DNA from: Synechococcus sp. RCC307
GTDB lineage: Bacteria > Cyanobacteriota > Cyanobacteriia > PCC-6307 > Cyanobiaceae
Assembly (NCBI GenBank): GCA_000063525.1
Contig: CT978603.1
Span: forward strand, 1,917,105-1,981,104
DNA: 64,000 bases
Reading direction: 5' to 3'
Positions 18,540 to 22,937 of the stretch are shown here, piece by piece. Every line of letters begins with the position of its first letter. Position 1 is the first letter of the stretch. The notes below the pieces were generated by a model that searched no databases, was not told the DNA's origin, and saw nothing but the letters and a program-made list of their open reading frames with translations. Made by a program: the position numbers and the translations under genes.

Positions 18540-19399
18540 GCGCACCTGCGATCCAGTGGTATCCGGGCCACATTGCCAAGGCTGAACAGCAGCTCACCCA
18601 GCACCTCAGCAAGGTGGATTTGGTGATTGAGGTGCGCGATGCGCGCATCCCGATGGCCACAGGCCATCCCCACCTGCAGCGCTGGATCAAGGGCAAACAA
18701 CACCTCTTGGTGATCAACCGGCGCGACATGGTGTCGGCGCAGGCGCGGCAGGCCTGGGATGAATGGTTCCGCAGCCAGGGGCAGACGCCCTGGTGGTGCG
18801 ACGCGAAAGCCGGCACTGGCGTCAAGCAGGTGCAACAGGCCGCCATCCGCGCTGGCGAGCAACTCAATGAGCGGCGCCGCAAACGGGGCATGCGACCCAG
18901 GCCCGTGCGGGCCTTGACCCTGGGATTCCCCAATGTGGGCAAATCAGCTTTGATTAACCGGCTGGTCCGCCAAAAGGTGGTCGACAGCGCCCGGCGCGCC
19001 GGTGTGACCCGCACGCTGCGCTGGGTGCGGCTGGGCCAAAGCCTGGATTTATTGGATGCACCCGGTGTGCTTCCGCCGCGGCTGGATAACCAGCAAGCCG
19101 CCCTGCATCTGGCCCTCTGCGATGACATTGGCCAGGCCGCCTACGACGGCGAAGGCGTCGCCCTGGCATTTCTCGAAATGCTGGTGGCGCTGGAGCAGCA
19201 ACCCGCTGCTGCCGTGCCGCCGCAACTGCTGGAGCAGCGCTACGGCATCGCCGTGGAGGCTGGCCCTGGGGCTGCTAACGCCTGGTTGAGCGCAGCGGCG
19301 CTGAAGCACACCTCCGGCCAGAGCGAACGCATGGCCCAACGGCTCCTCGATGACTACCGCCGTTCAGTGTTGGGGCCGATTGCCCTGGAGCTGCCATGA
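18536..19399 (+). CDS. rbgA: circularly permuted GTPase, YlqF/RbgA-like ribosome biogenesis factor
   Basis: A 287-residue GTPase with permuted motif order: the G4 motif NRRD is at residues 61-64, before the G1 P-loop GFPNVGKS at 130-137 and the G3 DAPG at 174-177. The N-terminal QWYPGHIAKAEQ is the family signature. RbgA assists late assembly of the large ribosomal subunit. Unlike most G4 motifs (NKxD) the second residue is Arg. It is coupled to the universal stress protein gene upstream (GTG start at 18536) and to a pseudouridine synthase downstream (ATGA at 19396). Confidence 0.93.
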   Translation: MSAPAIQWYPGHIAKAEQQLTQHLSKVDLVIEVRDARIPMATGHPHLQRWIKGKQHLLVINRRDMVSAQARQAWDEWFRSQGQTPWWCDAKAGTGVKQVQQAAIRAGEQLNERRRKRGMRPRPVRALTLGFPNVGKSALINRLVRQKVVDSARRAGVTRTLRWVRLGQSLDLLDAPGVLPPRLDNQQAALHLALCDDIGQAAYDGEGVALAFLEMLVALEQQPAAAVPPQLLEQRYGIAVEAGPGAANAWLSAAALKHTSGQSERMAQRLLDDYRRSVLGPIALELP

Positions 19400-20346
19400 A
19401 TGGCTTTGGCGAGGGGGAAGGCGAGCTACTGACGCTCCACTACCCCAAGCCCCTGCCGATGCGTCTGGACCGTTGGCTGGTGAGCCAGCGGCCTGAGCAA
19501 AGCCGCGCGCGGATTCAGAAATTCATCGAAGCCGGCTATGTGCGGGTCAATGGCACCACCGGCCGCGCCAAAACGCCCCTGCGCCACGGCGATGAAATCA
19601 AGCTGTGGATGCCGCCTCCAGAGCCACTGCCCTACCTGCAGCCTGAGCCGATGGATCTCGATGTGCTCTTTGAAGATGAGCACCTGATCGTGATCAACAA
19701 ACCAGCTGGCTTGACGGTGCATCCAGCCCCGGGGAACAAAGACGGAACCCTGGTGAACGGGTTGCTTCACCACTGCCCCGACTTACCGGGCATCAGCGGC
19801 AAGCTGCGACCTGGGATCGTGCATCGCCTCGATAAAGACACCACCGGCTGCATCGTGATCGCCAAGAGCCAGCAGGCCTTGGTGAAGCTGCAGGTGCAAA
19901 TCCAAAAGCGCGTGGCCTCCCGCGAATACCTCGCCGTGGTGCATGGGGTGCCGGCCGGCGAGAGCGGCACGATCGTTGGAGCCATTGGTCGCCACCCTGT
20001 CGACCGCAAGAAATATGCGGTGGTGAGTAGCGACAACGGGCGCTACGCCTGCACCCACTGGAGCCTGCAGGAACGACTCGGCGACTACTCACTGCTGCGC
20101 TTCAAGCTCGACACCGGCCGCACCCACCAAATCCGGGTGCACTGCGCCCATCGCAACCACCCGGTGGTGGGGGATCCCACCTACAGCCGTTGCCGCAAGT
20201 TGCCCATCGAGCTGCCGGGGCAAGCCCTCCATGCGGTGCAGCTGGGCTTGGATCACCCGATCACTGGCGAGCGGATGGTGTTCGAGGCCCCACTGCCTGA
20301 GGTGCTGGAAAAACTGCTGGCGGTGCTGCGCAAGCGAGCCGCTTAG
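19396..20346 (+). CDS. rluD: RluD-type 23S rRNA pseudouridine synthase
   Basis: A 316-residue protein with an N-terminal S4 RNA-binding domain (RLDRWLVSQRPEQSRARIQ, residues 23-42) and an RluA-type catalytic domain. The catalytic aspartate is in HRLDKDTTG at about residue 146. NKPAGLTVHP, the later RTHQIRVHC and GDPTYS motifs are all present. RluD converts uridines in helix 69 of 23S rRNA, fitting its pairing with the RbgA-like GTPase in one ribosome-maturation operon. Its stop overlaps that of the convergent CBM2 gene by four bases. Confidence 0.92.
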   Translation: MNGFGEGEGELLTLHYPKPLPMRLDRWLVSQRPEQSRARIQKFIEAGYVRVNGTTGRAKTPLRHGDEIKLWMPPPEPLPYLQPEPMDLDVLFEDEHLIVINKPAGLTVHPAPGNKDGTLVNGLLHHCPDLPGISGKLRPGIVHRLDKDTTGCIVIAKSQQALVKLQVQIQKRVASREYLAVVHGVPAGESGTIVGAIGRHPVDRKKYAVVSSDNGRYACTHWSLQERLGDYSLLRFKLDTGRTHQIRVHCAHRNHPVVGDPTYSRCRKLPIELPGQALHAVQLGLDHPITGERMVFEAPLPEVLEKLLAVLRKRAA

Positions 20347-22937
20347 AGCACGGTGAAGTCGGTGCCAGTCGCCAGCAGGGTGTCTTCGCTGAGGCTTCCG
20401 TTCCGGGCAAGGTCGGTGCCCGCCAAGGCGTTGAAGCCAACGGTTCGCGATTCACCCGCTCCGATCGACTGCCCCCAGTCCGCACCATTGAGCTCATAGC
20501 GATAGAGGTCTCCCGAGAGCTGCTCGGTGACCACCTCAACGCCCCAGGCTTCGCCATAAAAACGGTGGGCGCTGGTGAAGCTCAAGGCCCAGTCGTCCAG
20601 GGTTTGATCGCTCTGGTTGGTGACAGTGAGTGAGGCCGTAAAACCACCCCACCAAAGATCACCACTGACCTCAACATCCACAGGTGCACCCACCACGGGA
20701 TCAATCTCGGCAGGCCCCTCCTCAGGCAGCAGCGGACCGGGGAACGGCACCGGTTGCGGCTCAGGAGTGACCACTCCACCACCGGCCAAATCCTCCAGGT
20801 TCTGACCCAGCGGATCGCCTAGAGCCACGATGCCTTGGTAGTAGTTGATGACCGTTTGATCAGAGACCTCCAAGGCAGGCCATTGGGGCCAATCAAAGGT
20901 GTCATTCATGAACGGCTGGTTTTGATCCCAGCCCAGCACCGTGAGGTGATTGATGTCATGGGCAATTGCAACACCTTCAACATCCAAAAAGCCGTGGGTG
21001 CGCCCATGCATCCAGCCCCCGTAATGGGGCTCCATCTTCAAGGTGTTGATGAATGCGTCCTGCAGGCCGCTCTGCTGGATGTAATCGGCAAATCCTTCAT
21101 GGCCAAACTCACGAACCATCGCCATCACATCGCTCTCTGAGCCAAGCCGCGCCGTGCGCTGAATGTCAGCCAGGATCTGCGGGTCGTAAGCCTCATCAGC
21201 AATCCAGCCCACCTTCGCGCCTTGCATCGCATACCAAAGGCCAACCCCTTTGGTGTCATTGCCCCAGGCTTGGGAGTTATTGGTCAAACCTTGGGAAAAG
21301 GCCCACTCGCCCACCGTCTGAATCTCAACAGCATCCAAGCCAGCAAAGGCACGCAAGCCGTTGTAAGCAACCATCGCTTCTGTCGTGATCGCCGTGCGAC
21401 CACCCACCAACTCAGTGTGCTCTGAATTGTTGTTAGAGCCATGGAAGGTGCCCCAACTAGTGATATCGATGTAGTCACCTGATTGAGGGGAAGCAGCCAT
21501 GCCGTGGTCATGGCCGCTGTGGTCCATCTCCGAATGATCCTCAGAGCCGTGATCCATCACAGGCTCCTCAATGACTGGATCAGGAACTTCAACAACTGGA
21601 GCTGACTCCACAGCTTCAATAACCTCAATCGGCTCTGGCTCTGCAGCAACAGGCTCAGGCTCGGGGTCAACAACAGGTGCTGGAGTCGGTTCAGGATTCA
21701 CTGCTCCGCCTCCAGCCAAATCCTCCAGGTTCTGACCCAGCGGATCTCCCAAAGCCACGATGCCTTGGTAGTAGTTGATGACCGTTTGATCAGAGACCTC
21801 CAAGGCAGGCCATTGGGGCCAATCAAAGGTGTCATTCATGAACGGCTGGTTTTGATCCCAACCCAGCACCGTGAGGTGATTGATGTCATGCGCAATCGCA
21901 ACACCTTCAACATCCAAAAAGCCGTGGGTGCGCCCATGCATCCAGCCCCCGTAATGGGGCTCCATCTTCAAGGTGTTGATGAATGCGTCCTGCAAGCCAC
22001 TCTGCTGGATGTAGTCAGCAAATCCTTCGTGGCCAAACTCACGAACCATCCCCATCACGTCGTTCTCTGAACCAAGCCGCGCCGTGCGCTGAATGTCAGC
22101 CAGGATCTGCGGGTCGTAGGCCTCATCGGCAATCCAGCCCACCTTGGCTCCTTGCATCGCATACCAAAGGCCAACCCCTTTGGTGTCATTGCCCCAGGCT
22201 TGGGAGTTATTGGTCAAACCTTGGGAAAAGGCCCACTCGCCCACCGCCTGAATCTCAACAGCATCCAAGCCAGCAAAGGCACGCAAGCCGTTGTAAGCAA
22301 CCATCGCTTCTGTCGTGATCGCCGTGCGACCACCCACCAACTCAGTGTGCTCTGAATTGTTGTTAGAGCCATGGAAGGTGCCCCAACTGGTGATGTCGAT
22401 GTAGTCACCTGATTGAGGGGAAGCAGCCATGCCGTGGTCATGGCCGCTGTGGTCCATCTCCGAATGATCCTCAGAGCCGTGATCCATCACAGGCTCCTCA
22501 ATGACTGGATCAGAAACTTCAACGACTGGTGCCGGCACCGGTTCATCAACAACCGGTTGTGACTCAGGCTGAGGAGCCACCTCTGGCGAGGCTGAATCAC
22601 CAGCTATTAACAGCTCTTGGCTCAGGGAGCCAGTGACACCGAGATCAACACCTTGCTGGCCATTAAATCCAACCGTAACCGAGCCGCCTGCTGGAATCGC
22701 AGCCCCCCAATCAGCGCCGCTGAGGGTGTAATGAAACAGGCCGTTATCAAGGGGCTCAGCCTGCAACGTGGCACCCCACGGCGCTGAATTCAATTGATGC
22801 GGACTCTCAAAGCTGTAGCTCCAGCCACTGAGGGCAGATCCAGTGGTATTGGTAATCGTGATTTCGGCTGTAAATCCGCCCCACCAAATGTCTCCAGCCA
22901 CAGCAACACTGAGGCCTGATGGTGTTGATAGCGCCAT
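20343..22937 (-). CDS. CBM2 - duplicated unknown domain - CBM2 protein, probably secreted
   Basis: An 864-residue modular protein. Residues about 8-112 and 752-857 are CBM2-like carbohydrate-binding domains (GDIWWGGFTAEITITN and GDLWWGGFTASLTVTN, each later with ADWG, an IxAGxS loop and VGFN). Between them are two copies of one 276-residue unit, at residues 136-411 and 446-721, differing at only four positions (S/P, A/T, N/S, G/A). Each unit opens with a His/Asp-rich stretch (MDHGSEDHSEMDHSGHDHGM) and continues with many histidines, for example FGHEGF, PHYGGWMHGRTHG and AHDINHL, which could bind metal. Pro/Glu/Val-rich linkers separate the modules. There is no N-terminal signal peptide and no GGxGxD repeat; the C terminus ends in DFTVL, acid then hydrophobic, as in many type I secretion substrates (inference). 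I cannot assign the repeated core to a catalytic family. It sits between core genes and looks like an accessory insertion. Confidence 0.9.
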   Translation of the reverse strand: MALSTPSGLSVAVAGDIWWGGFTAEITITNTTGSALSGWSYSFESPHQLNSAPWGATLQAEPLDNGLFHYTLSGADWGAAIPAGGSVTVGFNGQQGVDLGVTGSLSQELLIAGDSASPEVAPQPESQPVVDEPVPAPVVEVSDPVIEEPVMDHGSEDHSEMDHSGHDHGMAASPQSGDYIDITSWGTFHGSNNNSEHTELVGGRTAITTEAMVAYNGLRAFAGLDAVEIQAVGEWAFSQGLTNNSQAWGNDTKGVGLWYAMQGAKVGWIADEAYDPQILADIQRTARLGSENDVMGMVREFGHEGFADYIQQSGLQDAFINTLKMEPHYGGWMHGRTHGFLDVEGVAIAHDINHLTVLGWDQNQPFMNDTFDWPQWPALEVSDQTVINYYQGIVALGDPLGQNLEDLAGGGAVNPEPTPAPVVDPEPEPVAAEPEPIEVIEAVESAPVVEVPDPVIEEPVMDHGSEDHSEMDHSGHDHGMAASPQSGDYIDITSWGTFHGSNNNSEHTELVGGRTAITTEAMVAYNGLRAFAGLDAVEIQTVGEWAFSQGLTNNSQAWGNDTKGVGLWYAMQGAKVGWIADEAYDPQILADIQRTARLGSESDVMAMVREFGHEGFADYIQQSGLQDAFINTLKMEPHYGGWMHGRTHGFLDVEGVAIAHDINHLTVLGWDQNQPFMNDTFDWPQWPALEVSDQTVINYYQGIVALGDPLGQNLEDLAGGGVVTPEPQPVPFPGPLLPEEGPAEIDPVVGAPVDVEVSGDLWWGGFTASLTVTNQSDQTLDDWALSFTSAHRFYGEAWGVEVVTEQLSGDLYRYELNGADWGQSIGAGESRTVGFNALAGTDLARNGSLSEDTLLATGTDFTVL
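20775..21602 (-). repeat. internal tandem unit, copy 2 (second in the protein)
   Basis: Second copy of the 828-base unit, encoding residues 446-721. Differences from copy 1 are uneven: 22 of the 28 lie in the left 445 bases (end of the domain), while the right part contains identical runs of 97, 141 and 118 bases. That pattern suggests recent partial gene conversion between the copies. Confidence 0.95.
21705..22532 (-). repeat. internal tandem unit, copy 1 (first in the protein)
   Basis: This 828-base segment encodes residues 136-411 of the CBM2 protein and matches the segment 930 bases to its left. By my hand count the two differ at 28 positions, so about 96.6 percent are identical, and only four residues change; most differences are synonymous. 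The two units are separated by a 102-base linker coding for Pro/Glu/Val-rich sequence. Confidence 0.95.

Follow-up and report, generated by a model that had tools for sequence, protein, structure and literature searches.

The stretch of DNA analysed here (the window) comprises 64,000 nucleotides of the complete genome of Synechococcus sp. RCC307 (2,224,914 bases), and contains on its minus strand an open reading frame, with exact coordinates (Table 1), for a protein of 864 amino acids. From its N-terminus the protein is composed of a CBM2 domain, a stretch rich in His, Asp and Met, a core domain, a linker, a second His-rich stretch, a second core domain and a final CBM2 domain. CBM2 is the sole Pfam assignment in the protein, with one match at each end (two stretches, E 4.7e-20; PF00553, 72.3 bits, curated cut-off 24), in agreement with the CBM2-like ends noted in a first-pass annotation. 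The description of the window protein itself as secreted-looking could, on the other hand, not be upheld, as the N-terminal CBM2 begins almost at Met1 and there is no signal peptide. No GH18 match (PF00704) was obtained in the Pfam search of the protein, no Rfam match between positions 19000 and 25000, and no promoter- or terminator-like sites were found when the gene region was scanned for them.

Table 1. Features of the gene in the window (aa, residue numbers in the 864-residue protein).
Feature	Position	Strand	Basis
Whole gene, 864 aa, without signal peptide	20343..22937	-	ORF; Pfam CBM_2 twice
N-terminal CBM2, aa 17-96	22650..22889	-	PF00553 match
His/Asp/Met-rich stretch 1, aa 151-170	22428..22487	-	sequence; such a stretch also precedes the core in relatives
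Core copy 1, aa 173-407	21717..22421	-	family alignment; AlphaFold2 pLDDT 89.7, pTM 0.90
EPHYGGWMH...HDINH motif, copy 1, aa 326-354; H328, H334, H350, H354	21876..21962	-	four His kept in 81/81
Pro/Glu-rich linker between copies, aa 408-460	21558..21716	-	sequence
His/Asp/Met-rich stretch 2, aa 461-480	21498..21557	-	identical to stretch 1
Core copy 2, aa 483-717	20787..21491	-	272-aa unit with 4 residues unlike the copy 1 unit
EPHYGGWMH...HDINH motif, copy 2, aa 636-664; H638, H644, H660, H664	20946..21032	-	motif as in copy 1
C-terminal CBM2	about 20412..20657	-	PF00553 match

The two cores belong to near-identical units (aa 137-408 and 447-718, offset by 310 aa), each of which contains MDHGSEDHSEMDHSGHDHGM, the His/Asp/Met stretch, followed by a core of about 231-235 aa. 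The duplication and the His/Asp stretch at the start of each copy had both been recognized in the first-pass annotation, albeit the unit is 272 residues long and not 276. At the DNA level the units are 96.9% identical, and their codon differences are 20 synonymous and 4 non-synonymous, as would be expected if the duplication is recent and purifying selection acts on both copies. Since the closest relatives carry a single copy of the core, the duplication is secondary. Single frames with two copies were also observed in two other Cyanobiaceae genomes, G338 (C1:104372-106111) and G241 (C1:2232553-2234226), encoding 977 and 854 aa, respectively.

Neither the window copy of the core nor an alignment of 68 family members gave a credible match in Pfam, NCBIfam (June 2026) or PDB sequences, and the whole window protein gave none in PHROGs, where matches at E 0.01-0.02 were judged to be due to chance. 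The same judgement was made for DUF6600 in Pfam (weak, in 28 of the 68 members, best E 0.0083, the window member below the cut-off) and for P450 124 in a PDB profile search (E 0.07, short unrelated segments). Phage and plasmid records searched for the core contained no match. An AlphaFold2 model made with five sequences (pLDDT 50) was discarded, but with 68 sequences a confident and nearly all-helical model of the core was obtained (Table 1). In Foldseek this model had no match in PDB at E <= 0.001 (best E 1.2, TM about 0.16) and nothing significant in BFVD, and the best Z value in VIA-align was 2.6, suggesting for the predicted structure that the fold is still unsolved as compared with PDB and BFVD. 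The view of the core as unassigned is supported by the sequence searches and by the Foldseek search of PDB.

A scan of genome contigs revealed 109 places encoding relatives of the core. The scan was seeded with the peptides QPFMNDT and FDWPQWP and top-scoring matches were retained, so that conservation close to these peptides is partly built in and divergent members may have been missed. The best 80 of the 109 were kept; they exhibit 62-88% identity, apart from one partial match at 94%, and their hosts are marine Synechococcus, Prochlorococcus, many Planctomycetota, Mycolicibacterium, Roseibium/Labrenzia, Haliea and Methyloprofundus. Judged by alignment, the core is a discrete family across bacterial phyla. 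In a quick-method tree of the core, where many tips are binned metagenomes, the phyla were intermixed, which suggests that the core may have moved between phyla by gene transfer. When 294 genomes of Pan216's phylum were searched with a profile, no divergent relative and one noise-level match were obtained, hence that search offers no distant branch to aid the assignment of function. A separate observation concerns a 62.8 kb IMG/VR contig (IMGVR_UViG_3300025120_013924; L012/L095/L117) with tape-measure and baseplate-like genes, recognized by reading, and a gene encoding two CBM2 domains, a core and a GH18 domain. Over 2.5 kb this gene is 92% identical in DNA to a contig of Pirellulales on which the neighbouring genes are bacterial, and the phage seems to have taken it from a planctomycete.

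Four histidines of the core (H156, H162, H178 and H182 in the numbering of the 235-aa core), and likewise E154 and D179, are invariant in all 81 sequences aligned, and the histidines fall outside the peptides used as seeds. They are part of the motif EPHYGGxMHxRx(H/N)G ... HDxNHL, with the spacings H-x5-H and H-x3-H, and an invariant Glu, an invariant Asp and a near-invariant Asn are close to them in sequence. H178 and H182 form an HxxxH pattern on one helix of the AlphaFold2 model. Three His motifs had been singled out in the first-pass annotation; the histidines of PHYGGWMHG and AHDINHL are those kept in 81/81, whereas that of FGHEGF is kept in only 55/81. It is plausible from this pattern that the four histidines form a metal site in the core. 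About 50 columns of the core alignment are invariant, and since many of these residues are polar, catalysis is suspected and the core is possibly catalytic. The His-rich stretch is a recurring neighbour of the core: across 77 proteins His makes up 7.1% of the 40 residues that precede the core, compared with 1.0% downstream of it and 1.6% in other parts, and 58 of the 77 had at least two His in these 40 residues. The stretch is absent from most mycobacterial and Roseibium members, and is therefore regarded as an optional accessory. Because the Met/His/Asp composition resembles known copper-binding repeats, copper is our favoured guess for the bound metal.

The domains joined to the core connect it to polysaccharide degradation. 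Core and GH18 chitinase are present in one polypeptide in L012, L029, L033 and L070, core and GH5 cellulase in L056, L084 and L053, and other single-chain partners are GH9 (L019), the lytic polysaccharide monooxygenase (LPMO) family AA10 (L092) and CBM5/12 (L073). CBM2 accompanies the core in 14 of 17 relatives scanned. Certain planctomycete proteins, such as L045, contain little more than the core, an export signal and repeats of EF-hand/dockerin-like type. Among the GH5 fusions the identities are 70-73% for the core, 53-59% for GH5 and 42-47% for CBM2, and between the window protein and its counterpart in strain WH7803 they are 78% for the core and 51-53% for CBM2. By these identities, the core is the slower evolving part in comparison with its partner domains.

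In RCC307 the only GH18 protein found in the genome is ChiA (1087 aa, L013:5416-8679), encoded some 1.1 Mb away from the window gene and lacking the core. L012 has the order two CBM2 domains, N-terminal domain, His stretch, core and GH18, and ChiA is 60% identical to its N-terminal domain over 226 aa and 49-54% identical to its GH18 domain. Since core and GH18 share one chain in L012 and are separate in RCC307, what forms a single chain in planctomycetes is split over two proteins in Synechococcus. The N-terminal part of ChiA (about 225 aa) recurs at 60% identity in the planctomycete/phage fusion, where Pfam assigns it to no family. Directly downstream of chiA, on the opposite strand, are EmrA/HlyD-like and MFS exporter-like genes (L013:8686-11285). 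The chitin or polysaccharide link proposed in the first-pass annotation is upheld by the GH18, GH5, GH9 and AA10 fusions and by a published knockout in WH7803 (PMC10651935). The nagA and glmM genes, which had been cited for the same link, are not adjacent and have housekeeping functions, and the relevant partner is instead the distant GH18 chitinase.

Core and chitinase also tend to occur together. The core has a patchy distribution, being found in 35 of 400 Cyanobiaceae genomes, and a strong GH18 match (E <= 1e-20) in 51; both were present in 26 genomes versus 4.5 expected (Fisher p 2e-19, a value that ignores shared ancestry). The remaining 9 of the 35 core-bearing genomes, some of which are drafts, had no strong GH18 match. 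When AA10 (PF03067) was searched for, none was found in the window protein, the RCC307 genome or 59 sampled relatives, a weak hint that the core could fill the niche of the absent AA10.

WH7803 has exactly three CBM2 proteins, in line with the number given in PMC10651935: ChiA, a neighbouring protein with a single CBM2, and a 537-aa frame with the core, which alone among the three has two peripheral CBM2 domains flanking its core. The gene for the latter has the same ABC ATPase and RluD-like neighbours as the window gene. Being one of exactly three, core-bearing and with two peripheral CBM2 domains, this protein fits WH7803_2345, a tag we assigned by architecture and position and not by annotation. 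WH7803_2345 shares with the window protein the arrangement CBM2, core, CBM2, the two neighbouring genes and the lack of a signal peptide, but has one copy of the core instead of two, and its locus differs in the presence of a LuxR-type gene and one further gene next to it. The LuxR/NarL-type regulator is located directly upstream of the WH7803 gene (L119:5828-6550), and a 32% identical regulator is located directly upstream of chiA in RCC307 (L013:4615-5319), with none beside the window gene; shared control of the WH7803 counterpart and chiA is possible.

Deletion of WH7803_2345 lowered the endochitinase and chitobiosidase activity of the spent medium despite over-expression of chiA, and attachment to colloidal chitin was the same as before (PMC10651935). 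The activities were determined with soluble 4-MU substrates, WH7803 expression constructs yielded no E. coli colonies, and the authors interpreted the effects of the deletion in terms of a function within a complex or of compensation (PMC10651935). WH7803_2345 is presented there by its CBM2 domains, the core domain being unmentioned in the text consulted.

A helper role in chitin degradation is well supported by these results. In its specific form, which we regard as about evenly poised between right and wrong, our explanation is that the window protein assists ChiA outside the cell while tethered to polysaccharide, and that its core has a probable metal site and is possibly catalytic. The CBM2 ends would hold the protein on chitin or cellulose. 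Each core would be a compact, nearly all-helical domain with the four invariant histidines as a probable metal site, and the His/Asp/Met stretch ahead of it would probably gather or hand over metal, copper being favoured. Most likely, the core would act chemically on the polysaccharide or beside it, in a step that complements the glycoside hydrolase, and the tandem duplication would supply more active units per bound protein. Export without a signal peptide would follow the example of ChiA, in several Synechococcus strains an extracellular protein that lacks one (PMC4949707). Many homologues have signal-peptide-like starts, and in the planctomycete proteins L075, L083, L089 and L094 these directly precede the core, thus supporting an extracellular location of the core.

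The main rival follows from the assay conditions, since an enzyme that opens crystalline material should not alter activity on soluble substrates, and an effect on complex formation, stability or export is favoured by such data. According to this alternative, the core would be a non-catalytic module that scaffolds, stabilises or targets the chitinase, with histidines that are structural or hold a structural metal. This accords with the drop in activity on soluble substrates and the rise in chiA expression seen upon deletion (PMC10651935), and with the range of different catalytic partners, which binding modules also have. However, about 50 invariant columns and a slower rate than that of the catalytic domains are unusual for a binding module, and the L045-type planctomycete proteins have little besides their export signal, repeats and core; we consider the alternative unlikely, though well worth keeping in mind. 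Distinctly less probable is a metal-dependent hydrolase or an esterase/deacetylase (for example with zinc) that acts on chitin or on groups it bears: an HxxxH pattern in a helix of the model together with the invariant Asp and Glu would suit a hydrolytic metal site, and the core is fused to glycoside hydrolases, but no known hydrolase family was matched in the sequence and fold searches described above, and deacetylation of chitin would be pointless in the GH5 and GH9 cellulase fusions. That the protein is an adhesin, as the attachment role put forward in the first-pass annotation implied, or a chitin sensor regulating chiA outside the degrading machinery is very improbable, and adhesion is disfavoured, since CBM2 at both ends, the over-expressed chiA and the two 32% identical regulators are outweighed by unaltered attachment to colloidal chitin in the deletion strain (both deletion results from PMC10651935) and by single-chain fusions to GH18, GH5, GH9 and AA10 that point to degradation.

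Returning to the ChiA helper with a probable metal site, three known systems are relevant for comparison. Synechococcus ChiA (CBM2 and GH18) resembles the window protein in its CBM2 domains, His-rich stretch and lack of a signal peptide, but carries a GH18 catalytic domain and no core; planctomycetes and a phage have ChiA-type GH18 and core combined in a single polypeptide. AA10 LPMOs are, like the core as proposed, helpers of glycoside hydrolases, often linked to CBM2 and with conserved histidines, and L092 fuses the two. AA10 is a beta-sandwich with an N-terminal His brace that binds copper, whereas the core has a nearly all-helical model, internal conserved histidines and no sequence match to AA10, and is not a member of that family. 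CelOCE, a copper cellulose-oxidising enzyme, is a recently found metal-dependent helper of unfamiliar sequence, but is a compact jellyroll dimer (PMC13353379) in contrast to the predicted helical core. A wider proposal, put forward tentatively and more apt to need revision than to stand whole, is that the core represents a class of secreted metalloenzymes that is new and has a fold still absent from the PDB, which would attack chitin and cellulose by chemistry of neither glycoside hydrolase nor known LPMO type and would have spread between Planctomycetota, picocyanobacteria, mycobacteria and a phage.

LPMO-type helpers of glycoside hydrolases have altered the view of crystalline polysaccharide breakdown, and the core is fused to the same enzymes, nameless in the libraries searched and more conserved than the partners compared. 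The core thus named by no library is probably a helper, not described before, in the degradation of tough biological polymers, and perhaps a metal enzyme. The WH7803 deletion strain is an existing genetic handle with which its role is directly testable. The ability of picocyanobacteria to use chitin is thought to have been gained by gene transfer, with planctomycetes as the probable source (PMC12329445), and the core bears on this use of chitin by marine picocyanobacteria.
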